From a virus: a stretch of 43,273 nt of DNA. The stretch covers positions 1 through 43,273 of the IMG/VR virus record IMGVR_UViG_3300046532_002553; one strand, written 5' to 3'. Shown in pieces: positions 4,413-43,273 of the stretch (its first letter is position 1; every line of letters begins with the position of its first letter). The position numbers and the translations under genes are program-made. The notes under the pieces are model-generated. The model saw only the letters and a program-made list of their open reading frames with translations. It did not search any database and was not told the DNA's origin.

Positions 4413-4460
4413 GGTGCTTTCCCTCCAGGGATTTGGTTGGTGCATTGCTGGCATCGTCAG

Positions 4461-6026: not shown

Positions 6027-6041
6027 GGGAAATAATTTCCC
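6027..6041. promoter_or_regulatory. 15-bp palindrome, possible operator
   Basis: GGGAAAT-A-ATTTCCC, perfectly symmetric about one base, beside an 8-T run (6015-6022) and an AT-rich tract. It could be a repressor or initiator binding site. This is inference from symmetry and context only. Confidence 0.4.
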
Positions 6042-6105
6042 ACCTACAAAATACTAATAAAAACTTAACCCGCCCCGTACTGGCTTTTTTAGCCCCCCTC
6101 CGCCC

Positions 6106-6134
6106 AAGGTAACAACCTCGATCGCCGTTGTCAA
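6106..6134 (-). promoter_or_regulatory. Possible second leftward promoter
   Basis: TTGACA (6134-6129), 17-bp spacer, TACCTT (6111-6106). The -35 is perfect and its flank (CTTGACAA) matches the promoter at 5619-5647, but the -10 is poor. It would transcribe the non-coding region toward the accessory cluster. Confidence 0.4.
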
Positions 6135-6171
6135 GTACGGGGTGTGGTTTAGCGAATCCAAGCCAGTTCAG

Positions 6172-7041
6172 TTATTGAGCACGGGTTACGGAATACTTGA
6201 CCGTCCTGTCTCGCCCTTCCTGCCAGATACGCATCCAAACTGCACCTAATGGCTTTGGTGGGCCTCCTCGCTCGATGTGCCATCCCCCGAAGCCATCTCC
6301 GTATTCATCTTTGTATGTGCCACAGCGTACATGGGTTTGCTCGTCCATGTAAATTTTTCCACTTCTGTTGATTCGTTCCCGAGCAATCGGCAGTATCCAG
6401 TTGTCATGCGTATGGCCGGTGACGACCAGGTCTGCGTCGGGCAAGAAAACTGACATTCGATTAGTCTGTATCACGCCGCGAGTAACAGGCCCACCGCCAC
6501 CGGAGCCGTGAAAGTACTTCATTCGGATGACGTGTTTCTTCTCCCCACCGAGGTGAGCGCGGAGAATGATCCACCCCCCATATCCGCCAGCATGCACCTT
6601 TCCACCGGACATGTGGGACATCAGATCACAGGTGCGTTCGGTAATGTCCGTCTCATGCCGTTTAGTGATGGCCGTTTCATGGTTCCCTCGGCCCACGATA
6701 ACGAAGTTCTCTGCATAGGGTGAGTAGAACTCGGCTGCATACTTGACTAAGGAATCGAGATATTCGCCATCCCTGTACTTCTCGCGTAGTGCGGATCGGT
6801 CGGCGCGCTTATCCCACTTACCCTGCATAGCACAATGCATGTCGCCTATGTCGATGATGCCTGCCTGGCGCTCGACGGCTTGTTTCAGGTGCTTGTTTTC
6901 CAACTCCCAATCAGTGTGTGCATTATCGTGGTGTCGATCGCTCGATAGCAAAAACCACTGCTCTTGGTCAACACTGGTCAGGTCGAAGGTCACGGCGTGT
7001 ACGTTGCGAGTGACTTGCTGAACTGCGTGTCTTGCTTTCAT
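6172..7041 (-). CDS. Calcineurin-like metallophosphoesterase
   Basis: A 289-residue protein with the metallophosphoesterase motif series in order: S-D-R-H (D35, H37), IGDMH (D67, H69), GRGNHE (N120, H121, E122), FHGSGGG (H178) and TGHTHDN (H210, H212). These residues bind the two metals and the phosphate. There is no signal peptide, so it acts in the cytoplasm. GAGGGC lies before the ATG. The substrate is unknown; phage relatives include nucleic-acid and nucleotide phosphatases. It lies downstream of the terminase gene in the same direction, which suggests a link to DNA processing or late functions (inference). Confidence 0.92.
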   Translation of the reverse strand: MKARHAVQQVTRNVHAVTFDLTSVDQEQWFLLSSDRHHDNAHTDWELENKHLKQAVERQAGIIDIGDMHCAMQGKWDKRADRSALREKYRDGEYLDSLVKYAAEFYSPYAENFVIVGRGNHETAITKRHETDITERTCDLMSHMSGGKVHAGGYGGWIILRAHLGGEKKHVIRMKYFHGSGGGGPVTRGVIQTNRMSVFLPDADLVVTGHTHDNWILPIARERINRSGKIYMDEQTHVRCGTYKDEYGDGFGGWHIERGGPPKPLGAVWMRIWQEGRDRTVKYSVTRAQ

Positions 7042-7107
7042 AGACAGCCCTCTTTTGTGGATTTTAATCCTTACAGCTGACGAGCTGCAAGGTTATCTGA
7101 TGAGCAC

Positions 7108-7335
7108 TCATACTCCCTCCTGGTAGACATCATTGATCTTGCTGGCTATATCGTCCAGCTCATCAGGGGTCGTCAATTTGGCTTTGATTAGGATAGATGA
7201 GACAGCAGCCAGCAGAAGCCCTGACGTCACTACCTTCTCTTGCATGACGTCAAGGTCGCGCTGGGCGTAGTGGCTGATCCGCTCGATCATCTTCCTGTTC
7301 TTTTCTACCTGCTCTGCTACGCTTCTGAAAGCCAT
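7108..7335 (-). CDS. Hypothetical helical protein (75 aa)
   Basis: The ATG at 7335 follows CTGGAGGAAG. The product is almost wholly helical, with an N-terminal charged coiled-coil-like part (VAEQVEKNRKMIERI) and a hydrophobic middle (SGLLLAAVSSILI) too short and weak to call a membrane segment firmly. It lies between the phosphoesterase and terminase-side genes. No family is recognised. Confidence 0.68.
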   Translation of the reverse strand: MAFRSVAEQVEKNRKMIERISHYAQRDLDVMQEKVVTSGLLLAAVSSILIKAKLTTPDELDDIASKINDVYQEGV

Positions 7336-20178: not shown

Positions 20179-22467
20179 ATGGCAGAGACGATTGCTAAGG
20201 AACACACGGTCGAGAACGAGAGCACGATTAGGACAAGACTTGCCAGCCGGGGTTCCCAGTTCAAAGAATCGCTCAGCAGTGCCGCTGGCGGGTTGGGTTC
20301 CCGGTACATAGACCACGTCCGCGAGAATACAAGAGGTGGGCGCATCCTGTTTGGAGATTCAGCAGCCGACCGGGAACACAAGGAAACGAACAGGGAACTG
20401 GCCCGACTGCGCCTGGAGCGGCAACAGTTTCTGAACGAAAACATGGGGGGAGATTACACCGCCACCCAGGAGCGCTTGGATAAGCAGGACATCGCCAGAG
20501 ATGAGGCCACCGCTGAACAAAGGCGTCTCCGGGAACAAGCGATCGCCGACCGCCCTGGCGAAGAAAAGCGTCAAAAGCTGCAAATGGATGCCTACGAACT
20601 ACAGCTTAAAGCAGCACAAACGGCGGCAGATAATGCTCCAGGGGACCGGCTGAAACAGGAGGCTGCGGATAAGCTCCAGAAGAATATCAACACCCTGCGA
20701 TTGGAAATAGAACAGTTCAAGAAGAAAAACATGGCAGCTGATCAACATCATGTAGAGCTGGGACGAGCCTCAGATCTCGCTCGGCGAGCGGGCGATGCCT
20801 TTCTGGAGCAGTACACCACGGGGTCGGACACAGCTAGCATGATGATAAAGGCGCTGATCCAAGAGGGTGGCTACAAAATACCAGACGGCGACTTCCAGAA
20901 ATATCTGAAGAGTGATCCACAGCTGCAACAACTTGCGGCTGACTACTCTCTGTTGCAGGTCAATGATCGCCGAGGCAAAGGCACTCCTGCAGAGCAGGAG
21001 CTCCAAGAGGGGGTATGGCAGGCAGGACTTCGTCAATTCGGCTATTCTGAGCTGCCGGGGGGGATGATTATGACCCCTACAGGAAGGAGATTCACTCAGG
21101 ACGAGGCAATACAGGATATCATGGGGCGCATGGCGGATCATGCAGAGGCCAGCATGAAGAGGTCGGCATGGAAGAAAGCTGCGCAAGGCGAGGTGAAGTC
21201 CGTCCTCGTCGAGGGGCTCATTGCCTCCGACTGGGCGATGGTTAACGCTGTCAAAGAAGCTGATGCGCTTTATAAAGCGTACCCTCAGGAGGTCCAGGAC
21301 AGGGCTGATGCGTGGGGCCTGTTGCGCCAGCTCGCGGACACGCCTGAGGGCACGGATACATACGAAGCGACAGGAATGAAATTAAAGGAACTCGCAGAGG
21401 ATATTGGCGTCGAGGTGTCGGATGATGGTCGGTATGTAAGGGACGACAAGATCCCGGCGGCTCATGGACCTGGCTTCGATGAGGATGGTGGGGGGTGGCT
21501 TTTGCTTTCAGATTACAAGGATCGGCTCGGCAAAAGCAACGCGATAATAGCTGCGGTAACGGGTCGGGTGGAAAGCGAGGCGCAGCGCAAGGAAGATCAG
21601 AAGCCTGTCGCAGGCCTGATGGTCAAGCAGCAGGGGGAAGACTGGATCGCATTCGACCCGGCCACCGGCACCGTAGCCTGGCGGGTGGATTCGAGGAGCT
21701 TGAGTCGCACGTTTGCTAATCTGGATACTGACCCTAAACTGAAACCCCTGAAGCAAGCATATTCGATCTGGCGCGCTGAAACAACCCTTCTTGATGATAG
21801 CACCGAGTTCCCGTATGGCGCATCCTCATCGACGAAAAAAATCTTTGCGATGTTCCTCCATAACACCAGCTGGACTTTGCCCGGCGACGCTGCCGGGGCC
21901 GATTCGGATATAGCTGGCACGGGGTTGGAAGATGAAGTACAGCCAGGGGGACTCCACCCGCGGAAAAATATGGATGGCAGATTTGGGGTCGACTATTTTT
22001 TCCCCGACCCCAACAAAGTGGTAGAGGAACCTGAATCCGGGTCTGCCGAGGAACCTGAATCCGGGTCTGCCGAGGAATCTACCAGCCTGATAGGCCTGGA
22101 TGAAGGGATATCACAAGGGACAGACAAAGTCACACTGTTGCGACGTGAGCGCTTTAAGCTCGGCGAGTCCACCGCAGGCGATGTGATTGCTCGATTGCAG
22201 AAGAAATTGTCGATCGATGGTTACCTGAACAAGCTAAACGCGCTGGCCGCGACCGGCCATGCGATCAAGTCAGGAAAGCCCGCTTATATAAAGGCTATTT
22301 CTAACGACCCCATAATGAAAACTAACACGCCACCCGCCATTATCTCTCGGCTCCTCTTGATAGAAAAGCTCAACCAAGAAAAGCCCTCAAAATCCGAGCT
22401 GGCCAAACTTAGCCCCAAACACCAAAAGCACTACAGGACCGTCCGGGCGAGGCTCTTCGATAAATGA
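20179..22467 (+). CDS. Internal virion (ejection) protein, coiled-coil rich (762 aa)
   Basis: AAAGGAG precedes the ATG. Residues about 45-190 are strongly coiled-coil (EHKETNRELARLRLERQQF, ERLDKQDIARDEATAEQRR, KLQKNINTLRLEIEQFKKK). The rest is helical and hydrophilic. Near residue 615 is an acidic tandem repeat. Length, composition and place before the giant gene agree with the middle ejection protein of podoviruses, which leaves the head with the DNA and helps form the channel through the cell envelope. It overlaps the next gene as ATGA. Confidence 0.72.
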   Translation: MAETIAKEHTVENESTIRTRLASRGSQFKESLSSAAGGLGSRYIDHVRENTRGGRILFGDSAADREHKETNRELARLRLERQQFLNENMGGDYTATQERLDKQDIARDEATAEQRRLREQAIADRPGEEKRQKLQMDAYELQLKAAQTAADNAPGDRLKQEAADKLQKNINTLRLEIEQFKKKNMAADQHHVELGRASDLARRAGDAFLEQYTTGSDTASMMIKALIQEGGYKIPDGDFQKYLKSDPQLQQLAADYSLLQVNDRRGKGTPAEQELQEGVWQAGLRQFGYSELPGGMIMTPTGRRFTQDEAIQDIMGRMADHAEASMKRSAWKKAAQGEVKSVLVEGLIASDWAMVNAVKEADALYKAYPQEVQDRADAWGLLRQLADTPEGTDTYEATGMKLKELAEDIGVEVSDDGRYVRDDKIPAAHGPGFDEDGGGWLLLSDYKDRLGKSNAIIAAVTGRVESEAQRKEDQKPVAGLMVKQQGEDWIAFDPATGTVAWRVDSRSLSRTFANLDTDPKLKPLKQAYSIWRAETTLLDDSTEFPYGASSSTKKIFAMFLHNTSWTLPGDAAGADSDIAGTGLEDEVQPGGLHPRKNMDGRFGVDYFFPDPNKVVEEPESGSAEEPESGSAEESTSLIGLDEGISQGTDKVTLLRRERFKLGESTAGDVIARLQKKLSIDGYLNKLNALAATGHAIKSGKPAYIKAISNDPIMKTNTPPAIISRLLLIEKLNQEKPSKSELAKLSPKHQKHYRTVRARLFDK
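22024..22071 (+). repeat. Two perfect 24-bp tandem repeats in the ejection protein gene
   Basis: Each unit encodes E-E-P-E-S-G-S-A, giving an acidic linker. The two units are identical in DNA, which points to a recent duplication by slippage; copy number may vary between relatives. Confidence 0.9.
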
Positions 22468-25400
22468 GCCGCAACGCCACAATTCACGACCTTCGCGAAG
22501 ACCCACGCTTCCAGGCACTAGACCGTAGGAGGCAGCAGGAGAAGGTATTTCATTGGCTGCGCGTGCAGCAGCACCTCGGTGTCCAGAAGCACGGTGCCGC
22601 CTTTCAGACGCAAGAGCTGCTTAGGCGTGCGCGGGAGCAGATCCCTGAGCTGACGGCTGCTGACGATGCCAGCTTTGGTGACCTCGCTGCTGGGTTCCTG
22701 GAGGGTGCCGTCCGAGGCTCGCCTATTGGATGGGTAGCTGGGCCCATCGACAAAAGGATTAGCCAGCCTGATCCATCTACCAAAAACAATTTATTAGGTC
22801 CAGACATCCTGGCTCAGGCGCAATCCTTGCGCGACTCAGGAATGTCTGAGTCCGACGTGCAAGCATTCCTCGACGGGTCGGTCAACTTCATCTCAAAGAA
22901 GGAACGGGGGCGGGGGTTAGCTAGGCACATCGTCGGCGTTGACAAATCGATCACCCGCGAGTTCAGCGGTGGCGCAGCCACGATGGTCGGATCTCTACTC
23001 GGCGCAGCTGGGTACATGAATATCAGTAGGGCAATAAATAGCCAAGTTAAGACCTTGAAACTTGAGAACCAAATCTCGGATGAGGCGGCTAAGATCCTTG
23101 AGGTTTTTGAATGGAGTGACATGCTCACTCCTGAGTACTGGGCGAACGAAGCAGCTGGGTCCTTATCTGTGACGATTCCCTTGCTGCTGACCGGCGGCGG
23201 CGCCATGGCTCTAGCTGGCCGAGCTGGCCTGAAAGGCCTCATGGCCACGGCAGTCGGAACCTTAACGACCGTCACGCCGATTGAAGCGGCCCTGGAGGCG
23301 ACGCGGGTATGGCAGCAGGTCCTGGACGAGGGTGGGTCCGAGGAGGATGCCGCTCGCGCAGGGGCATCGACGTTCGCTAATAACTTCGCGATGCTGGCTG
23401 TCAGCAACACACTCGGATTCCATATAGCTAAGAGCACTATCTTCCGTCGCATGTCGCCGGATATGCAGAAGTCGTTTGTGAAGTGGGGCATGTCGAAGGT
23501 GGGGCACCGTGTCGGCGTTGCCACCGGTCTCGTTGGCCAGGCAGTAATCGAGGGCGTAGAAGAGGCTGCATTCCAGAATTACTACCAGGACCTCGGCATC
23601 GCGGTAGGGAGGGGCACCGCTGACCGATTCTTTGAGCCGTTCGTCCAACCCGCGCTAGAGTTTACCACGGCACTACTGACGGGCAACTTGAGCGACGCCC
23701 AGCGTCGCACTTTGGCTCTCGGCATGGCCAGCGGTCTACTGTTCGGCGGAGGGGCACAGATCTATGGCTCGACCAGGAACCGGGCCAAGAGTTGGACGTC
23801 AGAATGGGTCGACATCAGAGGAGACCTGTTGCGTCGGAAAAAGAAAGGAGAAAAGGTCGCCGACGAGAAAATCGAGTTCGCTACTAAGATGATCGACACT
23901 GGTCGCGATCTGATTGCTCGGTTTAAGAAGGACGACCTGACCGACGAGGATGTCTCGACGGTGATGGAGGAAGTGGCCCAGAAGTTCTGGAAAGCGTTGA
24001 ACGAAAGCCGCACCGTTGATGATCCTAAAGCGGCTGGCGCGTTTGATCCTGACACGGTGTTCAATGCAGAGACACCTATTGACACCAGCGACGAAAGCGG
24101 CCCGATCGACAACAGCACCACAGCTGAACCACCGCCTGTTACCGAGACGATCCCCTTAGAATTACAAGCGGGAACCCTGAGACCTCCGACTGCTCAGGAC
24201 TTCGCTGACGTCGACTTCACTGACGGCAATGCCGCAGAGCTTAATGACTTCTTGGCGCAGTTCCTTCCCTTTAAGGTAGTCGCATCAATGACCCCGGCTC
24301 AGCGCCTCGCAGCAGGCAATAATATAGAGACCCTGCGCGAAAGCATTACGACATCTCAGCCTGAGCTGTCCAATCCCCGGAAATTTCGTCGGCCATCAAT
24401 CATCCGGCCAGCTGCAGGAGGGGAAAGTGGGAGAGGCCCGAAGTTCACGCCCCCCAAAGTAACCCCGCCCCAGGACGAGATGATCGGACCAGAGATGGAG
24501 AAGCTGGACTCCCCTGGCCTTGTGTCTCTGGGCGCCGTGCTCGATGCTGCGACGCCTGCTGGAGAGTCAGCACCAACTGGCCAGCCAGGCTTACCTGGAC
24601 TGGGGGGGCGTCGATCTGGCAGCTCTGCTTCGCCAGCGGCAGCTCCCCAGCTGCCATCCTCGTCAACCAGCCCGGTCACGCAGCCTGGGCTACCTGGCCT
24701 TGAGGTTCAGCCCGACATGTTCGACGCAAGTGAGTTCGAAGTGGATGGCGAATCGGCAGTGTCCGAGAATCATATCGTCACTGCAGGTAAGCCCGGTGAA
24801 GTGGTGCTGACCAATGTCGAGGACGGCACCGAGCGGTCATACCCCACCGTCCAGGCTGCACGCGAAGCCGCCCAACAGCAGGAACTGGACTTCATCGGCA
24901 CGCCGCAAAGCCTCGACGACCTGGAGCAGCAGCTTCGAACTGCGTCGCCCGATCTCACTGACGCTGATATCAGCTCATTCCGTGCGATGGTCGAAGGCAA
25001 TGCCGCCCTTGAAGCTCGCGTCAGCGGCAACCCGATTTCCGTAGATGACTACGTGCGTCGTGCGTTCAGTTCGGCACAGACTGGCGTCGTGCCCAGCGAC
25101 AATGCCCTACAGAAGCGGCGCAACCTATCGCATAACCCTCACCTTGCGCTGGAGATGTTGGCTGGCACTGCCGTCGCCCCGATCACTGTCGACTTCCCGG
25201 CGAAGCCAAAAATCATCGAGGTCGCCCGATTTGTTGAGCGTCTGGCTGGTGACCCGATAGCCTGGGCTAAGGCAACAGAAGAGCAGAATAAGATTGTAGA
25301 GGACGCGCTGTATAACGAGGTCCTGTTCGCACTGGAGAAGCACAAGGGTGCGAAGGGCTGGTACAAGAAGAACCTTGAATTGGCAATGAAACGCCTCGCC

Positions 25401-28400
25401 GCGATCGAGAAGAACTCAGGCCTGCCGAAGACCCTACACAAAAAGGAAAACCAATTCCTCTTAAAGGCTATCATCGCGATCACGTCAGATGGCAATGCGG
25501 TCCAGCAGAACCTGAATCAGGCATGGGACATTTACGCGAGCTGGCAGAAGAATGGTCGACCGAACCTTCGCCTCGCGACTGGCAAGAACGTCGACGCGAT
25601 CCGCGATAACCTCGGCGAGCTGGACATGGTCGTCAGTGAACTCGGCCTGAAGAAAGCGGTGACCTGGTTGACGGTAAAGGAGTCAGTGTCCGATGTCCGC
25701 GCCTCGCTTGTGCGCGACCTGGGTATGTCGAAGGAGGAAGCGGCTTCCATTGGCACAGCCGAGTTGGCCAGTGCGATCATTCCGCGTGGTGTCTTGTTCG
25801 GCCCGAAGCTGGGCTCGTTCTTGAACAACCTCAATGGCGACTTCTCGACAGTGACAATGGACCGGTGGTTCATGCGGACGATCGGTCGCATCACTGGTGA
25901 GCTGGTCGAGGTCATCACTGGCCAGAAGCGAATTGACTATCGCAAGCGTGTGCGTAATGCGCTTAATGCAATATCTAAAGAAGAGCTGGCCAGCCTGCCT
26001 ATATCGCGGACTCAGGCCAAGGGTTCTGGCGTCGAGGCAGTATCAAAAAAGATAGAGAGATACTTCTCCCCGAAGGCTCGGCGCGAGGACCTGTCCGCAG
26101 AGCTGAATGAGGTGCGCCTCGCAGCGAATACATTATCGAAGTCACTGGAGCCGGTGCGCAATTCGCCAGACAGCGGCGGACATCGGAAGTGGATGCGCGA
26201 GCGCGTAGAAGCTGTACAAAAACAACTGCGTGCAGCAGGCATCCAGCTGGAGAATGCTGACGTGCAAGCGCTGCTGTGGTACAACGAAAAGGAGCTATAC
26301 CTTGCCCTCGGAAACAGACCAAAAAAGGGGGCAGACGACTTCGCCTCCGCAGCAGAAATCGTCCACAAGCGAGTGGCTGGCCGACCATCTGGAATCACTG
26401 CAGGACGAGCAGGACGAGTGGAACGCATCGGAGGCAAGACAGGCAAAGAGGGCCTGGGTCGAGCGCGTGAGGGGGGCCCGTTTGCAAAAGACCGCGACGG
26501 GCAAGTAAGAGCAGAGGTCGAGTTCGATGAGGACTCGCGTGCAATCATCCGTGCGTTCAAAGGTGCGGATGGTCTCGACATAGCCCATGAGCTGTTCCAT
26601 GTATTCAGGAAGCGACTGGGCGACCTCGCCAACCAGGGGTTCCCTGAAGCCAGGGAGATGTTAGGGACCTTGGAGAAGTGGGCAGGAGTGAAGAAGGGTA
26701 ACTGGACCGTCGCCGCCGAAGAGCGCGTCGCCGAAGCTAGTGAGCTGTACCTGTCAGAAGGCAAGCCGCCGACCGAGGGATTGCGTGATGCGTTCGAGCA
26801 TTTCAAAAACTGGCTGTCAGATATCTGGTCGCGCATCAGTGGCGATATCAAGCTGACGCCAGAAGTTCGGGACGTGTTTGACCGGCTGCTTGGTAAGGCT
26901 CCACCGGTTGCTGTCCCTGCCGCACCTGCTGCCCCTACAGGGTTGGAGTCGGCACGGTTCAACTTCACGGTAGTCACTAAGCACATCGAGCTGATGAAGC
27001 AGATGCTGATCGACGGTCGGTTCGATGATCTACGCGAGCTGAACCGCGCCGTGATGCGCCATGCCCTGGCCGACATACCCAGCAGGAATTACAAGCTAAA
27101 AAGCTGGGACGTCGAGGGTGTCTGGGACGGCACCACGGAACCATCGATCTCTGTCGAGATCAGCGCGGACGCTGCGACGATGGACAAGGTCCGTGCCCGC
27201 CTCGCTGCTGTTAGCTCGATGTTTAAGCAGGAGGAGCTGCATGAGATCGAGATGGACGTCGAGCTGCCCGAAGGGGTAGCCCTGGGTGGCAGGGTTGGGT
27301 TCAATTCGTATCAGCCATTCGCAGTCATCTCGCTGCCAAGGAAGGCTAAGTGGTCGCAGGTTGAAGCAGCTCGCGCCACGTCGGGCATTCTCGGCGCATC
27401 GTTTGACGGCACTAATATTCTGGTGTATAATGTAGAAGAGACAGCTGAAGTATTCGAAAACCGAGTCGCTGTCTTAACGGAGACACTCAATGGCAATCAA
27501 AACGATACAGGACTTCGGGGAAGCATTACAGCGCAGTATGGCGTCGCGAGGATTAGACGTTACAGTGACACCCAGAACGCCGCAAAAGGGCAGCAAGGGT
27601 ATGCAGAAGCGTCTGTTTCTGACGCCTCATCCACCATCAGCGACCTCTCCGCCGAGCTCTTCCTCAGAATCGCCCAACACACAGGCGGACGGCTAACTGC
27701 CCCTGAGGCTCGCTCATTTTTTACACTGAGCGACCTGAACCCTGACCAGATCGCCCACCAGATGGCGATTGCCGATCGGTTTGGCTCAGCTCCAGTCGAC
27801 GACCTGTCAAACCCCCTCGTTGCCAGAGCTTACGAAGCTGCCGCCACTGCTATGATCAACCAGTGGAACGACATCATCGATGGTAACATCGAGATCGTGA
27901 TTGTGCCCTGGGAGCGTATCGAGCACGGCGCTAAAGTCATCGGCGAACCGTATCCGAACTCCGCCGCTGTCGTTAATGACATCCGCCAGAACCGCAGGCT
28001 TCGCGTACTCCAGACTGACGCGTCATCCTTCGGGCCTGAGGGCGCCGACTTCACGGCCCATCCGTTCCTTAAGCAGGCAACAGGTATCAAGGCACCGGTG
28101 ATGGGGAAGAACGGCGTCATAAAAAATCAACCGATCCTTGTCAACGACGTTCTGCGTGCAGTGCATGATGCAATCGCCCATGGTCTATACGCAGACTCGT
28201 TCGGCCCAGTCGGGGAAGAGGGTGCATGGCGCGCTCATATGGCAACGATCGCCGACCCTTGGGCCAGATGGGCAATCACCACCGAGACGCGAGGGCAAAA
28301 CTCCTTTGTCAACTACGGACCAAAGGTGCGCGATTCGGATGGGAATTTAATCACCTCTGGCCAGGCTGGGTATACCCCGATCGCCGATCGAGGGTTCGCA

Positions 28401-31400
28401 GTACAGAAGGCGTTTCTGCTGCCGCTGACCGACGTCCTTACTGGCAACTTCTCGATTGATGGTCCTGTCCTCGACCTGATTGACGAGCTTAATGACCAGG
28501 GTGTCGATCGCCAGGCGCTTAGTTCGATCGAGGTTCTTGATGCCGACGTCGAGGCAATTAACAATCCGAACGACGCAGTCGACGAGATCCTTCGCAGCAA
28601 CAGCGCGGAGCGCGCAGCTGACAAGATCCAGGCGCTGGCGCAGCAGGTTGCCGACAACAACCCCGAAGCATTCGGCGACCTGCTGTCTGCAGTGCCCACC
28701 ACGCCAGAGTTTGAAGAGACCCGTGCGCTACTGGAGCAGCAGGGCGACGAGATCGCAGGGATGCAGTATGCCCCTGTCGACAATGGTCGCGCACCCCTGC
28801 GCGTAGCTATTGCCACACTGAACCCTGAGCACTTCGGTCGCCAGCCGGTAGCACCAGCCCAGGCAGCGATAACTTTGGGTAAAATACTGGGGCAGAAGAT
28901 CGCGATTGCGAGCGCCCGGCAGAAGTCACGCTTCGCCCAGTCGCGTGGTCAGTTCGACCCAGGCCAGCAGGTAGTCACCCTCACTGGAATCACTCACATA
29001 CCGCGTACTGCGCATGAGATAGCGCACGCGATCAGTGCCCTGTATGGGCTGGACCCCCGCACTGGTCCAGCTGCAGCTGAGCTACTGCGGCTGGGCAACA
29101 ATGGATCACTGCCACCCAACCAGGCTAACCCTGTCCAGTACACGCGGGAAGAGGGGCTCGCTGAATTTATCTTTGGCGTCATGGTCAACCCTGATGCCAT
29201 CGCTACTATCGCACCGATGATGATGGCGCGCTACACCGCTGCTGTCAAAGATGGTGGCGTGCCTAAGGCAATCCGCGACGCTATCCATGCATATGGCGAA
29301 GAGATCCGCCTGATCTCTGGGCTGGGGCGAGCGGAGCAGAACCGACTCGGCGCGTTTGCGTGGGGTGACGAGCGTGACAGCCTCGGCGCCCGCATCAAGA
29401 AAAAGTTCTACGGTGACAAGGATGCCCCAGGGTTTCAGCCCTCTGACTTCGATCGCTTCGCCCACTCGACTACCAATCCGATCGCGATGTTCCAGTCAGC
29501 GATGCGTGATGCGATGGGCGCGAAGGATCGCACGGTTGACGAGCTGCTGCCGTCTTCGAATCCCATCATCGGCGCACGCCTGCTGGCTGGTCATGCCGGT
29601 AAGATGTATGACTACTTTATGAACGGGGTGTTCGACTTCCATGGCAAGCGTCGCGACGGCGATGTCGGTCGCAACGCCAAGGACCTGTACAAGTGGTTCG
29701 ACGGCTTGACTAGGGCCCAGATCGAAGCCGACGTGCAGATGACTGCGACCCTTATGACAGCCGAGCGCGTGATCGACGTCGCGGTTCTAAAGGCTGAGCG
29801 CAAGCAGTTGCAGGCTGAGATCAAGTCACTGACCAAGACGCTTGGCGCAGCAGAGCGTGCTAATAATGGCGACCTGGCCGAGCTGCTGTTGTCAGAGATC
29901 GAAGAGGCAAAGAACGAGCTTGCGCAGACAAAGGACTTCGCCGATATAACGTCGCCCCTCGGCCTGGGCCTACTACCTGAGGTCGACGCTGCCCGTGAGA
30001 TCATCCAGGACCTTGAGCAAAACCAGCCAGTTCGCCTGGAGCGCATTAAGAAAGCTGCAGCTGAGTACAGAGCGTTCAGCGAATCCTTCCTGACCTATTC
30101 GGTTGAGGGTGGGCGCATGTCGCAAGAGGCATTCGACCGGATCAAAAAGAACAACGGTCACTACGTTGCCATGCGTCGCGAGATGCTGGCCTATGCTGGT
30201 GAGCGCCTGGCGATCGGCGGCGGATCTTCAAAGGGCAACCCGACGTCGTTCACTAATGTCGGCAAGGTCACCAACGCTGTCGTTAAGTTCACTGGCAGCG
30301 AGCGAGCGATGCTCGACCCATACCAGGTACTATGGGAAGCAGGCAGTCGCATCGTTGGCGAGACGGATCGCAACGCAGTCTGGCAGAACGTCGTTCACTT
30401 GGTCTTGCCTGATGCGGACACCTCGGCGGCGTCGAAGGGATTCCTCTCCTCGATCGTTCGGCGCACAGCTCTCGACGAAGCCAACTCAATCCCCGTGTAC
30501 TTCGATGGAGTGAAGCAGAGTTACGTCGTCCATCAGGATGTCCTGGCCGAGGTGACTGGCTACGCTGATTCCCACATCAAGCTGCCAATGCTGTTCGGCC
30601 TACCAGCTCGCATCCTGAAGGCAGGTATCCTCAACTTCCCAGCGTTCGGGATACGTCAGCGGAACAAAGACATCCAGGAGCGCGCTGTTATCTCGCGGAC
30701 GGCCCCGTCGCTGGCGTCACTGCCTGGCATCAAGTCGTTCTTTGTAGACTTTGTCAGGGTCTGGAAGCCTGTCGACAGTGAGATGGTGTCGCTGCTGCTG
30801 CGATTCGGCGGCGACCAGGTCCACAGCTTTATGAAGGGACCGGCGGAATGGCATTCGATGCAGCGGGGGATCTCCAGGGAGTTAGAGAGTGATTCGAATG
30901 TCGTCGTCACTTCCTTCGCAGCACTGACTAAGGCTTATGACAACTACTTCGTATCAGGCGGCGATCGTGCGACGCGGGTTATTGAATATGAAAGCGCTTA
31001 CAAGAAAGCTAAGGATGAGTTGGGCTACGACGACTACAACGCACACCTCTATGCAGCGTTCAATGCCCGTGACCTGATGGACTTCTCTATGGCTGGTGAA
31101 TACCTCCAGGTCGTCAGGCAGTGGACAGCCTTCGGCGCGATCCCCGCCCAGGCAATGCGCAGGCAGCTCCGGTTTCTGGGTGAGGGTAAGGGTGCGACCG
31201 GCACTGGCGACCTTGCGGTGAAGCACGCGATGCTTGCCCTTCCGAAGCTCGCGGTGTTTGGGACTATTAGTGGACTGATGGGTCGGGCTTTGATACATGC
31301 GATCGGTGGCGATGCCGAGAAGGAATACCAGCGCATGTCGACATCACAGCGGCATCTGTACAATAACATCCCGTTGATGTTCGACGGCAAGGTGCAGTGG

Positions 31401-32093
31401 ATATCCATCCCGCGACCCTACGAGGTCGGACTCTTTGCTGCAGCTGCCGATCTGCTGTACAGCGACATCCTGACAGATGAGGTCGACCCCTGGCAGGGGT
31501 TCGTCGGATCTGCCCTGCACCTAATCTCTCCGGTGAGCGACGAGATGATGGCTGGCCCGGCGCGAGCCCTAATTGAGGCGACGACCGGCTACGACTTTTT
31601 CCGTGAGCGATTCATCATTCCACCCTGGGACCTGGGGCGCCCATTACATGAACGCGGTGGCATCTCAAGAGCCTCCCGCGTATCGAAGCTAATCGGTGAC
31701 ATCGCAGGCTTCGATGCCAGGCGTCTCGATCAGTTCATCAAATCCAGCCTGGGCTATTTCGGCAAGACAATCCTTGATGTCAGCAACATCGGACGCGACG
31801 ACGTCCAGGGTTTTAGCTTCAATCCATTCTACCTGACGACCAACGTCGTTGGCTTAACTAAGGCCCAGGCTGAGAGTGCTGCACGACCAGTTCAGGCAGT
31901 GTTCGAAATCACTAAGAACGATGGTCGTATTCGTGAGATGCGTCAGTACAAAATGATGCGCAAACACATGCGGCAGATGTTCGATACCAAGAAACCAGAA
32001 CTGCGCCAGCGATCGCGTGAGCGGATGATTGCAGCAGCCGAGAAGCTGATTGTCCAATACGAGAAGCGCTACGCAAACAAACCACCAAGGTGA
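22464..32093 (+). CDS. Giant polyvalent internal virion protein (3209 aa)
   Basis: A single 9.6-kb gene coupled by ATGA to the one before it. Visible parts: a Gly/Ala-rich hydrophobic segment (residues about 234-270); a Pro-rich linker with two QPGLPGL copies (about 705-755); a first zincin site HELFH (H1375, E1376, H1379) with AEERVAEASELYL downstream; a conserved phage module with VNDVLRAVHD (1893-1902) and TTETRGQNS (1939-1947); a second zincin site HEIAH (H2184, E2185, H2188) with REEGLAEFI downstream; a coiled coil (about 2441-2492); and an LPD38-like region ending in IPRPYEVGLF (about 2870-2990). This is the architecture of phage polyvalent proteins, thought to be injected with DNA to counter host defences. 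No N4-type RNA polymerase motifs were seen. Confidence 0.85.
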   Translation: MSRNATIHDLREDPRFQALDRRRQQEKVFHWLRVQQHLGVQKHGAAFQTQELLRRAREQIPELTAADDASFGDLAAGFLEGAVRGSPIGWVAGPIDKRISQPDPSTKNNLLGPDILAQAQSLRDSGMSESDVQAFLDGSVNFISKKERGRGLARHIVGVDKSITREFSGGAATMVGSLLGAAGYMNISRAINSQVKTLKLENQISDEAAKILEVFEWSDMLTPEYWANEAAGSLSVTIPLLLTGGGAMALAGRAGLKGLMATAVGTLTTVTPIEAALEATRVWQQVLDEGGSEEDAARAGASTFANNFAMLAVSNTLGFHIAKSTIFRRMSPDMQKSFVKWGMSKVGHRVGVATGLVGQAVIEGVEEAAFQNYYQDLGIAVGRGTADRFFEPFVQPALEFTTALLTGNLSDAQRRTLALGMASGLLFGGGAQIYGSTRNRAKSWTSEWVDIRGDLLRRKKKGEKVADEKIEFATKMIDTGRDLIARFKKDDLTDEDVSTVMEEVAQKFWKALNESRTVDDPKAAGAFDPDTVFNAETPIDTSDESGPIDNSTTAEPPPVTETIPLELQAGTLRPPTAQDFADVDFTDGNAAELNDFLAQFLPFKVVASMTPAQRLAAGNNIETLRESITTSQPELSNPRKFRRPSIIRPAAGGESGRGPKFTPPKVTPPQDEMIGPEMEKLDSPGLVSLGAVLDAATPAGESAPTGQPGLPGLGGRRSGSSASPAAAPQLPSSSTSPVTQPGLPGLEVQPDMFDASEFEVDGESAVSENHIVTAGKPGEVVLTNVEDGTERSYPTVQAAREAAQQQELDFIGTPQSLDDLEQQLRTASPDLTDADISSFRAMVEGNAALEARVSGNPISVDDYVRRAFSSAQTGVVPSDNALQKRRNLSHNPHLALEMLAGTAVAPITVDFPAKPKIIEVARFVERLAGDPIAWAKATEEQNKIVEDALYNEVLFALEKHKGAKGWYKKNLELAMKRLAAIEKNSGLPKTLHKKENQFLLKAIIAITSDGNAVQQNLNQAWDIYASWQKNGRPNLRLATGKNVDAIRDNLGELDMVVSELGLKKAVTWLTVKESVSDVRASLVRDLGMSKEEAASIGTAELASAIIPRGVLFGPKLGSFLNNLNGDFSTVTMDRWFMRTIGRITGELVEVITGQKRIDYRKRVRNALNAISKEELASLPISRTQAKGSGVEAVSKKIERYFSPKARREDLSAELNEVRLAANTLSKSLEPVRNSPDSGGHRKWMRERVEAVQKQLRAAGIQLENADVQALLWYNEKELYLALGNRPKKGADDFASAAEIVHKRVAGRPSGITAGRAGRVERIGGKTGKEGLGRAREGGPFAKDRDGQVRAEVEFDEDSRAIIRAFKGADGLDIAHELFHVFRKRLGDLANQGFPEAREMLGTLEKWAGVKKGNWTVAAEERVAEASELYLSEGKPPTEGLRDAFEHFKNWLSDIWSRISGDIKLTPEVRDVFDRLLGKAPPVAVPAAPAAPTGLESARFNFTVVTKHIELMKQMLIDGRFDDLRELNRAVMRHALADIPSRNYKLKSWDVEGVWDGTTEPSISVEISADAATMDKVRARLAAVSSMFKQEELHEIEMDVELPEGVALGGRVGFNSYQPFAVISLPRKAKWSQVEAARATSGILGASFDGTNILVYNVEETAEVFENRVAVLTETLNGNQNDTGLRGSITAQYGVARIRRYSDTQNAAKGQQGYAEASVSDASSTISDLSAELFLRIAQHTGGRLTAPEARSFFTLSDLNPDQIAHQMAIADRFGSAPVDDLSNPLVARAYEAAATAMINQWNDIIDGNIEIVIVPWERIEHGAKVIGEPYPNSAAVVNDIRQNRRLRVLQTDASSFGPEGADFTAHPFLKQATGIKAPVMGKNGVIKNQPILVNDVLRAVHDAIAHGLYADSFGPVGEEGAWRAHMATIADPWARWAITTETRGQNSFVNYGPKVRDSDGNLITSGQAGYTPIADRGFAVQKAFLLPLTDVLTGNFSIDGPVLDLIDELNDQGVDRQALSSIEVLDADVEAINNPNDAVDEILRSNSAERAADKIQALAQQVADNNPEAFGDLLSAVPTTPEFEETRALLEQQGDEIAGMQYAPVDNGRAPLRVAIATLNPEHFGRQPVAPAQAAITLGKILGQKIAIASARQKSRFAQSRGQFDPGQQVVTLTGITHIPRTAHEIAHAISALYGLDPRTGPAAAELLRLGNNGSLPPNQANPVQYTREEGLAEFIFGVMVNPDAIATIAPMMMARYTAAVKDGGVPKAIRDAIHAYGEEIRLISGLGRAEQNRLGAFAWGDERDSLGARIKKKFYGDKDAPGFQPSDFDRFAHSTTNPIAMFQSAMRDAMGAKDRTVDELLPSSNPIIGARLLAGHAGKMYDYFMNGVFDFHGKRRDGDVGRNAKDLYKWFDGLTRAQIEADVQMTATLMTAERVIDVAVLKAERKQLQAEIKSLTKTLGAAERANNGDLAELLLSEIEEAKNELAQTKDFADITSPLGLGLLPEVDAAREIIQDLEQNQPVRLERIKKAAAEYRAFSESFLTYSVEGGRMSQEAFDRIKKNNGHYVAMRREMLAYAGERLAIGGGSSKGNPTSFTNVGKVTNAVVKFTGSERAMLDPYQVLWEAGSRIVGETDRNAVWQNVVHLVLPDADTSAASKGFLSSIVRRTALDEANSIPVYFDGVKQSYVVHQDVLAEVTGYADSHIKLPMLFGLPARILKAGILNFPAFGIRQRNKDIQERAVISRTAPSLASLPGIKSFFVDFVRVWKPVDSEMVSLLLRFGGDQVHSFMKGPAEWHSMQRGISRELESDSNVVVTSFAALTKAYDNYFVSGGDRATRVIEYESAYKKAKDELGYDDYNAHLYAAFNARDLMDFSMAGEYLQVVRQWTAFGAIPAQAMRRQLRFLGEGKGATGTGDLAVKHAMLALPKLAVFGTISGLMGRALIHAIGGDAEKEYQRMSTSQRHLYNNIPLMFDGKVQWISIPRPYEVGLFAAAADLLYSDILTDEVDPWQGFVGSALHLISPVSDEMMAGPARALIEATTGYDFFRERFIIPPWDLGRPLHERGGISRASRVSKLIGDIAGFDARRLDQFIKSSLGYFGKTILDVSNIGRDDVQGFSFNPFYLTTNVVGLTKAQAESAARPVQAVFEITKNDGRIREMRQYKMMRKHMRQMFDTKKPELRQRSRERMIAAAEKLIVQYEKRYANKPPR

Positions 32094-33342: not shown

Positions 33343-33684
33343 ATGAGTCCCATCGGCGACGAGACTAATCTGGACATAAACCTCAAATGGTTAATCCAAA
33401 TAGTCGTAATGGTAGGCGCGGTTGTCTGGGGGTATTTCACGTTGACTTCACACATCAGGCAATTGGAAATTGAAGTGCTGCGGATGCAGGACAGCGTGAT
33501 ACAGAATGCCGAATTTAGAATAAAATGGCCCTTGGGGGAATTGGGCGCGTTGCCAGACGATGCCGAACAGAACATGCGCCTAAAACATTTAGAAGAAAAA
33601 GTCGAGAAAGCGGAAATACAGATTGACCGCTTGAGGATTCGCGATGCAGCAGCCACCACCAACACACCTGAGGAATTGAAATGA
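33343..33684 (+). CDS. Membrane-anchored coiled-coil protein, lysis cassette (113 aa)
   Basis: AGGAG precedes ATG 33343. One membrane helix lies near the N terminus (WLIQIVVMVGAVVWGYFTL, residues about 16-34), followed by a coiled coil (HIRQLEIEVLRMQDSV and later HLEEKVEKAEIQIDRL). A short N-terminal part would be cytoplasmic and the long coiled coil periplasmic, as in an i-spanin, though a holin or structural role is possible. It is coupled by ATGA to a lipoprotein gene, the usual i-spanin/o-spanin order. Confidence 0.65.
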   Translation: MSPIGDETNLDINLKWLIQIVVMVGAVVWGYFTLTSHIRQLEIEVLRMQDSVIQNAEFRIKWPLGELGALPDDAEQNMRLKHLEEKVEKAEIQIDRLRIRDAAATTNTPEELK

Positions 33685-33947
33685 GGAAAACCGCGTTCAT
33701 CATCGTTGTCGCTTTCGCCATGTCCGGGTGCGCAACAGTACAAATGCCGATGGCGGAAGGATCGGACCAGGTAATGACGTTCAAAGGATTTGCGTCGAAC
33801 ATGACGATTGATTTACCGGGTGGATTTGATGCCGATGGAAATCCACTTACCGGTAAAACTGTCAACATCAATGCACACATTCTGGAAGGCCCCGCGGTAG
33901 AGGCCCTGAAGTCCATCGCCCCGTTTGCTGCGATGGCGGTTCAATAA
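33681..33947 (+). CDS. Small lipoprotein (88 aa), possible o-spanin
   Basis: It begins MRKTAFIIVVAFAMSGCA: two basic residues, a hydrophobic stretch, then A-M-S-G-C, a usable lipobox with Cys 17 as the lipidated residue. The mature part is about 72 residues and beta-rich. The ATGA overlap with a membrane/coiled-coil gene suggests the two act as an envelope pair, which would be outer-membrane disruption if they are spanins. It is longer and less Pro-rich than classical o-spanins, so this is tentative. Confidence 0.68.
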   Translation: MRKTAFIIVVAFAMSGCATVQMPMAEGSDQVMTFKGFASNMTIDLPGGFDADGNPLTGKTVNINAHILEGPAVEALKSIAPFAAMAVQ

Positions 33948-33949
33948 AA

Positions 33950-34297
33950 TTGGACGTAGTCGATACAGCGCACGCTCAGCACTTCATCCAAGCGATCACT
34001 GGATGGGCTGGTGGGTTGTTCGTTGCCGGATGCGTGGTCCTGATCTTCCGCACGACGATTCAAAATGTCGTGGCCGGAATATTATTCAAAAGAGGCGCTG
34101 AATTAAAACTGGACCAAACGGTGTTGATTAGCAAGCGGAAAGCCAGGTTGGTGCGTGTTGGAATTTTAAAAACTGTTTTTTATATGGACAATGGAAACCA
34201 AAGAAAGATGATCGTGCCTAATTCACAGCTGGTACAATTAACCTTGGAAGTGATCTTGGAAGAACACATAACAGAAGAAAAAAAAGGAAATGAATAA
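33950..34297 (+). CDS. Minimal MscS-like membrane protein (115 aa)
   Basis: The only start is TTG 33950, with no strong ribosome site but two bases after the lipoprotein stop. Residues 18-35 form one hydrophobic helix, followed by IQNVVAGILFKRGAELKLDQ and then RKMIVPNSQL (86-95). This order matches the pore-lining TM3 helix and the beta domain of MscS-type mechanosensitive channels (S-N-x-A-A-G-x-L-L ... I-P-N-x-x-I). The two sensor helices and the C-terminal domain of MscS are missing. Cellular MscS is about 286 residues. In this cassette it could act as a pore or a lysis-timing protein (inference). Confidence 0.62.
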   Translation: MDVVDTAHAQHFIQAITGWAGGLFVAGCVVLIFRTTIQNVVAGILFKRGAELKLDQTVLISKRKARLVRVGILKTVFYMDNGNQRKMIVPNSQLVQLTLEVILEEHITEEKKGNE

Positions 34298-34418: not shown

Positions 34419-34480
34419 TCACGGGCTGGCTTTGTTACGGGAGTGGCAGGGCCAGTCCACCTTTTTGGAGATTAGGGGGC

Positions 34481-34684
34481 ATGAATCACATAGAAGATTT
34501 ACAGAAGGAGCTGCAACTGCAGACGGCAGCAATCAACAAGATGACCGTGTGCCTTGAGACGTTGACGGTGCAGTTCACCTATCAGCAGGCGAGCCTCGAT
34601 CGGCTGTGGAAGATTGTGTGGGGCGTGATCTCATTCACCTTCGTTGCGGTCGGCTGTGCCTTGACTGCCCTGGTGGTCAAGTGA
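34481..34684 (+). CDS. XhlA-like tail-anchored protein, holin candidate (67 aa)
   Basis: GGAGATTAGGGGGC precedes the ATG. The first 45 residues are a charged coiled coil (IEDLQKELQLQTAAINKM) and residues about 47-66 a single C-terminal membrane helix (VWGVISFTFVAVGCALTALV), the layout of XhlA-type holin or haemolysin proteins. Its stop overlaps the next start as GTGA, coupling it to the lipase-like enzyme. With that partner it forms the most holin/lysin-like pair in the genome. Confidence 0.72.
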   Translation: MNHIEDLQKELQLQTAAINKMTVCLETLTVQFTYQQASLDRLWKIVWGVISFTFVAVGCALTALVVK

Positions 34685-35337
34685 GTACCTGGATCAGGCT
34701 GGCCGAAGCTGCCGCCAACATCTACGACGCAACCGACCGAACCAACTACGGTGGCGTCGAGTTCCGTACAGAGATGATACAGGATATCCCGACGTTCGTC
34801 ATTTGCGGGACCAACCACGGGACTCGACCAGGCTGGTGGCGACGAATGCTCGGCTGCTGCCGTGATTGGTTGACAAATATCCAGCGCCAGCAGATAGCTA
34901 TTCAGATCGGCGGATCTCGCGTCAAGATCCATGCAGGATTCTGGCGAGCTGCGTGCGAGGTTGATCGATACTTCGAAGCCTGGGCCGATGATCGTGATGG
35001 CAAGGTCGCACTCGCTGGCCACAGCCAGGGTGCGGCAATCGCAGCGTGTCTCGCGATCCTGTATGAGCATCGCAACCCAGGTAAGATCGCGCACCTCTGC
35101 TTACTCGCCTGTCCAAAGGTCGGCGACGCGAAGCTGGGCCAGTTATTCCGAGCGCTATTCCAGCCATTCCAGTATCGGCTGTTCGCACGGAAACTCGACC
35201 CGATCGTGCATCTGCCGACCGTTGGGTACAAGCCACTGGCGAAGCGGACGTGGTTGCCGTCCAGGCTTAATGGAAAGCTGGATCACGCAGCACAGGAGTA
35301 CGTCCGCGAGCTCAAGGATCTGGAGGCTGCGCATTGA
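34681..35337 (+). CDS. Class 3 lipase-like alpha/beta hydrolase (218 aa)
   Basis: GTG 34681 overlaps the preceding stop as GTGA. The protein has the lipase class 3 layout: VKIHAGFWRA (residues about 81-90), the nucleophile elbow GHSQG (S115), CPKVGDAKLG (144-153), and D173 in DPIVHLP with a late His (H202), giving a plausible Ser-Asp-His triad. No signal peptide is present, so export would need the holin-like partner. It may cleave membrane or outer-membrane lipids during lysis. I found no muramidase, amidase or peptidase endolysin elsewhere, so this may be the main lytic enzyme. Confidence 0.82.
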   Translation: MSTWIRLAEAAANIYDATDRTNYGGVEFRTEMIQDIPTFVICGTNHGTRPGWWRRMLGCCRDWLTNIQRQQIAIQIGGSRVKIHAGFWRAACEVDRYFEAWADDRDGKVALAGHSQGAAIAACLAILYEHRNPGKIAHLCLLACPKVGDAKLGQLFRALFQPFQYRLFARKLDPIVHLPTVGYKPLAKRTWLPSRLNGKLDHAAQEYVRELKDLEAAH

Positions 35338-39362: not shown

Positions 39363-39484
39363 TGACAGAAAACCACAAGAAGTTCCTGGCGCACCTGAAG
39401 GACAGCTCGTCTGCCGTATTCAGGTCGCTGCTATGTTTGCTCGGCATGGCCCTGGTGAGCGGTATCGACGCGGGAGCGCTATGA
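39362..39484 (+). CDS. 40-residue membrane microprotein
   Basis: ATG shares a base with the previous stop (TAATG), and its TGA overlaps the methyltransferase ATG (ATGA). The product has a charged start (MTENHKKFLAHLKD) and a hydrophobic middle (VFRSLLCLLGMALVSG). The tight overlaps on both sides support translation and couple it to the methyltransferase. The function is unknown. Confidence 0.6.
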   Translation: MTENHKKFLAHLKDSSSAVFRSLLCLLGMALVSGIDAGAL

Positions 39485-40317
39485 ATGAGTTGGCACTATT
39501 CGCAGGCGCTGGTGGAGGAATACTCGGAGGCATGCTCAGTGGATGGCGAACGGTTTGCGCTGTTGAGATCGAGCGATATGCCCGCGACGTACTGCTGGCA
39601 CGACAGAACGACAGAATCCTCGAACCTTTTCCAGTATGGGACGACGTGCGAACCTTCGATGGGCGACCCTGGCGAGGACTTGTTGACGTGGTATCGGGCG
39701 GATTTCCTTGTCAAGACATCAGCGTTGCGCGAGCGATGTGGGGACGCGAGGGCATTAGGGGCGTACGATCCTCTCTATGGTGGCAGATGTTCAGAATTAT
39801 TGAACAGGTTCGACCGGCCTATGTATTCGGTGAAAATTCACCAGCACTGCGAACAAATGGACTCTGTGAGATCATCGAAGAACTTACCGGCATCGGGTAT
39901 GCTTGTCGATGGATCACTCTCGGGGCTGACGCTGTTGGACTTAATCATCGTCGACATCGACTATGGTTCTGCGCAACTGCCGACACCGACGGCTCGGGAT
40001 TGGAAGGACACGCTCGGCATGAATCCGAAACGGAAGGACGGCAAGACACGCCTCGACCGCTTGCCGATGTTGCTTTTCGATCATGCCAGGGCTGCGGGTA
40101 TATCTACGACGACGAACTGGGCAAATACGGATGTCCGAATTGTCACGCTGAGGGGCCAGGTGGAAGTTATGATTACGGGTCGGGACTACTGCCCCGAGTT
40201 GTCGGAATGGCTGATGGGATGGCCGATCGGGTGGACAGACTTCGAGCCATTGGCAACGGTCAAGTTCCAGCAGTGGCAGCGCTCGCATGGGATATCTTGA
40301 GCAACGGCGAAATCTAA
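39481..40317 (+). CDS. DNA (cytosine-5) methyltransferase
   Basis: 278 residues with the C5 methyltransferase motifs in order: LFAGAGGG (I, residues 6-13), GGFPCQDIS (IV, catalytic C77), GENS (VI, E118), RRHR (VIII, 157-160), a target region with a four-Cys zinc ribbon (C202, C205, C218, C221) and AIGNGQVP (X, 257-263). ATG 39481 overlaps the previous stop. It would methylate phage DNA against host restriction. The target site cannot be read from the sequence. The +1 frame is open over nearly the whole gene and also reads like a protein (next entry). Confidence 0.93.
   Translation: MNELALFAGAGGGILGGMLSGWRTVCAVEIERYARDVLLARQNDRILEPFPVWDDVRTFDGRPWRGLVDVVSGGFPCQDISVARAMWGREGIRGVRSSLWWQMFRIIEQVRPAYVFGENSPALRTNGLCEIIEELTGIGYACRWITLGADAVGLNHRRHRLWFCATADTDGSGLEGHARHESETEGRQDTPRPLADVAFRSCQGCGYIYDDELGKYGCPNCHAEGPGGSYDYGSGLLPRVVGMADGMADRVDRLRAIGNGQVPAVAALAWDILSNGEI
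39485..40300 (+). CDS. Overprinted +1-frame ORF inside the methyltransferase gene (271 aa)
   Basis: Starting at ATG 39485, four bases after the methyltransferase ATG, the +1 frame stays open for 271 codons to TGA 40298-40300. Its product is not low-complexity. It begins MSWHYSQALVEEYSEAC, contains LPTPTARDWKDT, and ends with EWLMGWPIGWTDFEPLATVKF. I recall this pattern from proteins annotated next to C5 methyltransferases in many phages. The strings are the exact +1 reading of motif I and of AIGNGQVP, so conservation may be carried passively by the methyltransferase. Coding status is open. Confidence 0.5.
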   Translation: MSWHYSQALVEEYSEACSVDGERFALLRSSDMPATYCWHDRTTESSNLFQYGTTCEPSMGDPGEDLLTWYRADFLVKTSALRERCGDARALGAYDPLYGGRCSELLNRFDRPMYSVKIHQHCEQMDSVRSSKNLPASGMLVDGSLSGLTLLDLIIVDIDYGSAQLPTPTARDWKDTLGMNPKRKDGKTRLDRLPMLLFDHARAAGISTTTNWANTDVRIVTLRGQVEVMITGRDYCPELSEWLMGWPIGWTDFEPLATVKFQQWQRSHGIS

Positions 40318-42367: not shown

Positions 42368-43273
42368 TTAGGACAACGCAGCAAGAACTGCGTCGGTTTC
42401 AGAATGGTCGTACACGTCACGCAGCAGCATCGGCGAGGTGCCAACAATGCGCACAATCAGGTCGCGATCAACACCCGCTTCGATCAAAGTAGTGACAAAT
42501 AAGTGCCGCCAGGAATGGAACCCCCTGACAACCCTGCCGGTGGCGGCATCTGCCGTAGCAATGCCAGCCCCCCGTAGGTGATCCATTAGCATCTGGCTCA
42601 GGGTCTTCTTGTCGGAAACGTACCATGCTGCCAGTTCAGGTAGGATATACTGGTCGTCGTGGTCGCCCCACTGCTCCAGCTCAGCGATCAGTACGGGGTG
42701 CATCGGGATGCGTACCGGCCTTCCGCGCTTGCTAGTGGTGACGGCAATAGTGCTGCCGTCCAAGCTGCTCCACTGCAACTGGCAGCAATCGCCCCGACGC
42801 ATGCCGGTATAGCGTCCGATGACATGCAGTGTGTGAAACTCGCGGCCACCCCGCCGACAGTACTTCTCCCGGCCACGCAGCTCGGCGTGGTACTGGAAGA
42901 TCAGCTCCTGATCCGCCTGGCTGAACGGCTCCTTATTGACCGTATCCAGGCGCGGTGCTTGCGTCTTCTTCCAGGGGTTGCGACGCGCTTCGAAGAGCGC
43001 CTCCCACACGGCCATCAGCGTCGCCCTGTGTGTCCTGACCGTTGCCGGTGCGCAGGTCATCTGCTTGAGATAAGAGACTGATAGGTCGCTGTCGATGTCG
43101 TCGACTGTGAGCCCCTGTGCAGTAGCCCAGCGCCCAAAGACCCCCAGGCGGCACTTGTGGTTGTACATGGTATCGACGGTCAACTCCTGGTCTCGGAGCG
43201 GAGCGGAATCGAAAGCCTCGTACAGGTTGCCGATGATAGCTGCGCTGACCTTCGCCGGTACTACAGCTACTTG
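42368..43273 (-). CDS. int: Tyrosine integrase, main part (5' end continues at position 165 to 1)
   Basis: The frame is open through 43273 and continues at position 1 to ATG 165, so the protein is 356 residues. In that numbering: a core-binding SAM-like domain (about 65-165) with CAPATVRTHRATLMAVWEAL; the catalytic Arg in TGMRRGD (R214); a Lys in SKRGRP (K237); HSWRH (H308, R311); and the nucleophile in DVYDHSE (Y343). All family residues are present, so it should be active. An internal TTG at 43183 could start translation but has no ribosome site. It would catalyse attP x attB recombination. No att core could be identified. Confidence 0.95.
   Translation of the reverse strand, partial: QVAVVPAKVSAAIIGNLYEAFDSAPLRDQELTVDTMYNHKCRLGVFGRWATAQGLTVDDIDSDLSVSYLKQMTCAPATVRTHRATLMAVWEALFEARRNPWKKTQAPRLDTVNKEPFSQADQELIFQYHAELRGREKYCRRGGREFHTLHVIGRYTGMRRGDCCQLQWSSLDGSTIAVTTSKRGRPVRIPMHPVLIAELEQWGDHDDQYILPELAAWYVSDKKTLSQMLMDHLRGAGIATADAATGRVVRGFHSWRHLFVTTLIEAGVDRDLIVRIVGTSPMLLRDVYDHSETDAVLAALS

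Follow-up and report, generated by a model that had tools for sequence, protein, structure and literature searches.

A phage-encoded MscS pore core in a lysis-like cassette and its possible role as a lysis pore

The mini-MscS gene and its cassette in the window

The window analysed here is the whole viral record IMGVR_UViG_3300046532_002553 of IMG/VR (43,273 nt). Given its genes for a P22-like portal, a Phage_capsid_3 coat protein, an SU10 adaptor, an internal virion protein, a terminase, an integrase and a C5 methylase, the virus is judged to be a short-tailed and probably temperate phage. A temperate or mobile lifestyle is likewise indicated by the presence of both the integrase (42368-43183, minus strand) and an ArdC-type anti-restriction protein with a metallopeptidase domain (3438-4454, minus strand). 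A single ORF at 22464-32093 encodes a giant polyvalent protein of 3209 aa, in which LPD38, near the C-terminus, was the only domain recognised, and the ORF of the C5 cytosine methylase (39433-40317) overlaps almost wholly with another one in a different frame of the same strand (39485-40300).

The gene under study, here called mini-MscS, occupies positions 33950-34297 of the plus strand (115 codons and a stop) and encodes a protein of 115 aa. Its TTG start lies 3 nt past the stop of an upstream lipoprotein gene, and the strand opposite the ORF contains several stops. This start is supported by the homologue in L001 (IMG/VR contig 3300010883_011338), which carries an ATG at the matching residue. 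L001, whose mini-MscS is 63% identical to that of the window and has the same neighbours, belongs with the window to a ‘near group’ (the window, L001/L003, L005/L007 and L006) with members of 111-119 aa that are about 50-63% identical to the window protein.

The initial annotation had placed the gene in a lysis cassette among a possible spanin pair, an XhlA-like protein and a lipase. Two genes upstream, at 33343-33684 (plus strand), is an i-spanin-like gene for a single-TM protein with a periplasmic helix, which matches phrog_20984 (E 3.5e-21). This family has no assigned function in PHROGs. It has homologues in cultured pelagiphages; in HTVC027P an M15 endolysin (peptidase) is encoded two genes further on. 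We regard phrog_20984 as a candidate spanin family. The start of the next gene (33681-33947, plus strand), which encodes an o-spanin-like lipoprotein of 88 aa with the lipobox MSGC, lies inside the stop of the i-spanin-like gene, producing a 4-nt overlap. The single-TM/lipoprotein architecture and the gene overlap are thus those proposed for a spanin pair, but no spanin family match passes the cut-off. L001 lacks the i-spanin-like gene. The lipoprotein, for its part, has homologues of 46-73% identity in the other three near-group phages; it is directly upstream of mini-MscS in the window and L001, and in L005 and L006 it is also upstream, at a distance of a few hundred bases. A rescan with the profile of this lipoprotein returned the same three other records only, and no match was observed in a scan of 84,980 cellular genomes. 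Identity with the superinfection exclusion protein Cor (E 0.0066) was rejected, as the similarity covers only the signal peptide (residues 1-27).

Downstream of mini-MscS, positions 34481-34684 (plus strand) encode a 67-aa protein with a C-terminal TM (hydropathy 2.29 at residues 48-66). It is XhlA-like in architecture, though no family match passes the cut-off; similar coiled-coil proteins with a C-terminal TM are encoded near mini-MscS in L001, L005 and L006. The following gene (34681-35337, plus strand, GTG start) was confirmed as a class 3 lipase (PF01764, E 6.1e-11), and a class 3 lipase is found in the same place in L001 (E 3e-14). At 34423-34458, a terminator-like hairpin (16 pairs, T-rich tail) separates mini-MscS from the XhlA-like gene and may divide the cassette into two units of transcription.

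Homology to the MscS pore core

The match of residues 35-97 of mini-MscS to the Pfam family PF00924 (MS_channel_2nd) scores 22.6 bits (E 1.2e-4), where the curated cut-off is 20.2. The Pfam scan of the protein reported no further MscS domain, and the window record contains no second PF00924 match. Among nine related records, six contain a match above the cut-off. These single-sequence data are uneven: members L011 and L012 of the more distant ‘far group’ described below pass the cut-off (22.4 and 22.9 bits, respectively), while the L001 member falls slightly short (18.1 bits) and those of L005 and L006 have no PF00924 match. A weak similarity of the L005 member to PF10873 CYYR1 (E 0.011) was far under the cut-off of that family and was discarded.

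A comparison by hhalign of a profile of 24 phage mini-MscS relatives with seven cellular MscS proteins was decisive. The match had a probability of 96%, an E of 3.3e-9 (for a single comparison) and a score of 60.4, compared to a maximum of 24.9 among 200 column shuffles (mean 13.7, sd 2.5) and to 18.5 for the reversed alignment. It spans TM3a, TM3b and the beta domain, aligning residues 10-96 with residues 87-172 of E. coli MscS, and places N39 on N117, G43 on G121 and the PN motif on P166-N167; identity to E. coli MscS is about 16-19%. Within the mini-MscS family, G43 and VPN are invariant and N39 is nearly so. A PDB search with the single sequence gave just one weak, unrelated match, and with the profile only MSL1 was found (E 0.8-1.5).

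The layout of the protein follows this register. Its one hydrophobic segment, a TM3a-like membrane helix at residues 15-33 (AITGWAGGLFVAGCVVLIF; 33992-34048, hydropathy 2.08), is preceded by about 14 residues only. A TM3b-like helix (residues 34-49, 34049-34096) is suggested by the hhalign register and by the model, and the strands of the MscS beta domain lie within residues 57-101 (34118-34252), with IVPN encoded at 34211-34222. The TM1 and TM2 sensor paddle is absent, and so is the C-terminal alpha/beta vestibule: the protein ends about 15 residues past the last beta strand and no such Pfam domain was found. Since K and R are absent from the 14 residues before the TM segment and abundant after it (9 in the next 40), we infer from the positive-inside rule an N-out/C-in topology like that of MscS TM3. 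The charge bias around the TM segment is weaker in far-group members. The L005 and L006 proteins (6875-7234 and 5995-6348 of their records) carry a C-terminal run of 6-9 aspartates, missing in other members.

AlphaFold2 models of the window protein and of the L058 member were of moderate confidence (pLDDT 63.9 and 66.9, pTM 0.41). The predicted window structure is a helix at 6-32, a break at 33, a second helix at 34-49 and strands at 57-60, 63-70, 74-79, 85-90 and 99-101, which in this model is a TM3a-TM3b-beta arrangement. The L058 model has a single continuous helix without the TM3 kink. For both models, the first 50 matches listed by Foldseek against the PDB were without exception members of the MscS superfamily. 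The initial annotation would have been refuted by a missing MscS profile match or by a fold lacking TM3-beta, and neither was observed, even though the L058 model is without the kink.

Some other small beta-barrel membrane protein could resemble MscS by chance, a reading to which the unmatched L005 and L006 members and the moderate model confidence would lend some weight. It is contradicted by the shuffle-controlled profile match, the register of TM3b and VPN and the exclusively MscS fold matches, and we consider it hardly credible. Homology of mini-MscS to the MscS pore core is well supported, in agreement with the initial annotation, which had recognised a pore helix and beta domain without sensor helices. 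By its core, mini-MscS is a derived member of the MscS superfamily and not a canonical MscS channel: E. coli MscS shares the TM3a-TM3b-beta core and the aligned N117, G121 and PN motif, but has 286 aa with TM1, TM2 and a C-terminal alpha/beta domain, whereas the phage protein has 115 aa and is encoded in a cassette with a lipoprotein.

The closest known protein, and the smallest characterised relative that we found, is TcMscS of Trypanosoma cruzi, a mechanosensitive heptamer of 165 aa and 478 pS which lacks TM1 and the vestibule and keeps TM2 (PMC12334622). The window model gave a balanced fold match to it (PDB 9bgq, TM-score 0.64/0.55). Both are miniature MscS proteins that stop after the beta domain, without TM1 and the alpha/beta vestibule. 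TcMscS is, however, eukaryotic and a proven heptamer, while mini-MscS, known from sequence, has a single membrane helix and is one helix shorter still.

The phage family and the exchange in the far-group cassette

Profile-led scans of IMG/VR gave at least 50 viral loci of the mini-MscS family, which fall into two groups. The far group includes 47 loci, with complete members of 127-134 aa that are 33-39% identical to the window protein. No member of the family has extra TM helices. Between the two groups, identity is 24% in the TM3a pore helix and 44% in the beta domain. Comparison of the window and L003 genes gave a pS of 0.84 and a pN of 0.25, which implies strong purifying selection on mini-MscS. 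The members from the window, L005, L006 and L012 retrieved no real relatives by tblastn from 50,697 phage records (INPHARED), and the window DNA had no match in phage records. In 84,980 cellular genomes, one pattern-limited scan with mini-MscS patterns revealed neither a relative nor a near-identical sequence. In BFVD, three unnamed viral proteins of 104-138 aa match the mini-MscS fold, so that unannotated members are probably already in UniProt; the phage family is previously unnamed.

Gene order in the far group is fixed: mini-MscS, a lipoprotein, a one-TM protein and usually a two-TM protein. The lipoprotein is shorter than, and different from, that of the near group. In 47/47 loci its start is located between -25 and +80 nt from the mini-MscS stop, compared to 1.5% of random places. 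It is followed by a one-TM protein of 50 aa and, in most loci inspected, then by a two-TM protein of 56-78 aa; inserted genes interrupt some of these cassettes.

A scan with the far-group lipoprotein yielded 80 loci, 50 of which contained mini-MscS only and 25 a different protein only; none contained both. In four of the 5 loci with neither protein, the lipoprotein is at a contig edge, the exception being L138. The replacing protein (L119:200-493, L124:2215-2508, L141:554-847 and 22 other loci), hereafter the swap protein, belongs to a 97-aa single-TM family (GTDTANLIQTLGFPVVAAAAAGIFGYKIVFYVLRDLSQEVKNVYEIVVKLIDRLNGHDKETNKLAREVAMLRVEVGSLYKCLG) and gave no blastp match with mini-MscS. The surroundings are conserved between the two kinds of loci, with upstream flanking proteins 58-86% identical, lipoproteins 69% and one-TM proteins 61%. 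The short N-terminus, single TM and long charged helix of the swap protein are arranged as in BhlA-type holins. The protein is holin-like in that architectural sense; assignment to the BhlA family itself was rejected, as PF10960 was not matched. Its best similarity in a cultured phage is weak (E 0.02), to a gene beside the CsgF/CsgG curli-pore genes of phage Melnitz. In that phage two tandem short proteins of similar architecture (L150:3704-3982 and 3995-4342) are encoded directly upstream of csgF/csgG and are possibly a holin pair.

Because an unrelated membrane protein replaces mini-MscS in an otherwise conserved cassette, the two slot proteins probably do the same job. This replacement is the strongest hint at the function of mini-MscS, and it concerns the far group, whose members are about 35% identical to the window protein and accompany a different lipoprotein, the near group of the window having another gene order.

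A further link with lysis comes from the far-group two-TM protein, a homologue of which (53% identity) occurs in Synechococcus phages; in cyanophage Yong-M4-211 this homologue is 18 nt downstream of an L-alanyl-D-glutamate peptidase. The i-spanin-like and lipoprotein pair of the window speaks for lysis too, and the initial annotation was right in that the cassette of mini-MscS is lysis-like; it is also late. No endolysin was recognised in Pfam and PHROGs scans of the window, and the endolysin families PF01510, PF08291, PF00959, PF01464 and PF13539 were not detected in 17 records, possibly fragments or carrying diverged enzymes. In the open-access literature we found no phage mini-MscS described as a lysis protein.

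Candidate functions of mini-MscS

We propose, at roughly even chances, that mini-MscS is an MscS-derived oligomer of the inner membrane which serves as a holin or pinholin-type lysis pore. Its acidic N-terminus would be outside, followed by one TM3a-equivalent helix in the membrane, the TM3b helix at the interface and the beta domain in the cytoplasm. By analogy with MscS, where this domain holds the heptamer ring together, and with TcMscS, the beta domain may drive oligomerisation. The protein would then self-assemble late in infection into a small MscS-type pore and, acting with the lipoprotein and small TM proteins of the cassette, depolarise the membrane as a heptameric pinholin does. Pinholin heptamers enclose a lumen of about 2 nm (PMC9636201). 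The pinholin S21 68 of phage 21 is likewise a small phage membrane protein, and its heptameric channel corresponds to the working form proposed here; it differs in having no homology to mini-MscS, no cytoplasmic beta domain and a SAR endolysin partner, which was not found here. The CsgGF pore of phage Melnitz and pelagimyophages is another cellular pore proposed as repurposed by phages for lysis, as a pinholin-like device according to its discoverers (PMC9004378). It is however an outer-membrane curli pore of unrelated fold, linked to the present cassette only by the neighbouring gene weakly similar to the swap protein (E 0.02).

The initial annotation had offered three ideas, a pore-former, a tension sensor timing lysis and a dominant-negative partner of host MscS. 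The first is best supported, through the slot that mini-MscS shares with a holin-like protein, but the lack of a recognised endolysin counts against it, as do the origin of the swap evidence in the far group, the purely architectural likeness of the swap protein to holins, the lower conservation of the pore helix and the moderate confidence of the models. The higher conservation of the beta domain than of the pore helix, and the two more small TM proteins that follow mini-MscS in most far-group cassettes inspected, would also suit a regulator or scaffold, whose beta-domain ring holds, delays or organises the real holin in an antiholin-like manner while those small TM proteins make the pore. 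Such a role seems unlikely, if worth keeping in mind, since the swap protein keeps the membrane arrangement of mini-MscS and the same one-TM protein is present with either slot protein. A working tension-gated valve, guarding the infected cell from early bursting or delaying lysis until membrane tension rises, draws on TcMscS, in which TM2, TM3 and the beta domain suffice for mechanosensitive gating (PMC12334622). Mini-MscS is also without TM2 and therefore has no lipid-facing paddle; moreover, cellular genomes already encode such channels (PF00924 in 14/14 control genomes) and a holin-like protein can take the slot, which makes a valve rather improbable.

Slightly less probable again is an envelope guard, for instance for superinfection exclusion, made of mini-MscS and its lipoprotein outside the lysis machinery. 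The universal lipoprotein pairing and the weak Cor similarity of the window lipoprotein would fit it, but this similarity is confined to the signal peptide, the genes have late structural genes around them, and in a cyanophage one member of the cassette is linked to an endolysin. Finally, mini-MscS could join and poison host MscS heptamers, as both proteins have the heptamer-packing domain. We disfavour this third idea of the initial annotation and judge it very improbable, given the low identity to E. coli MscS, the conservation of mini-MscS across phages with divergent cassettes, its fixed partnership with phage genes and the absence of a near-identical cellular sequence in the pattern-limited scan.

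Returning to the lysis pore, we suggest more tentatively, at somewhat below even chances, that a new class of holin has arisen in phages from the core of the MscS channel, with one helix per subunit, assembled by a beta ring, swappable with an unrelated single-TM holin-like protein in one lipoprotein-linked lysis cassette and possibly still gated by membrane tension, so that turgor would time lysis. Other virus-encoded relatives of mechanosensitive channels are the MscS/MscL-like channels of large DNA viruses, such as the 261-aa MscS-like protein with three TMs of an Aureococcus virus, which infects an alga (PMC6163359); this Aureococcus virus protein is not encoded in a lysis cassette.

These results give a name to a viral protein family that is widespread and has no match in PHROGs version 4. 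Mini-MscS would be smaller than any MscS pore known so far, showing which part of the channel suffices for a hole. The occurrence of either mini-MscS or an unrelated holin-like protein in one operon slot amounts to a natural swap experiment, and the family lets phage biology test whether a safety valve of cells has become a device for lysis.
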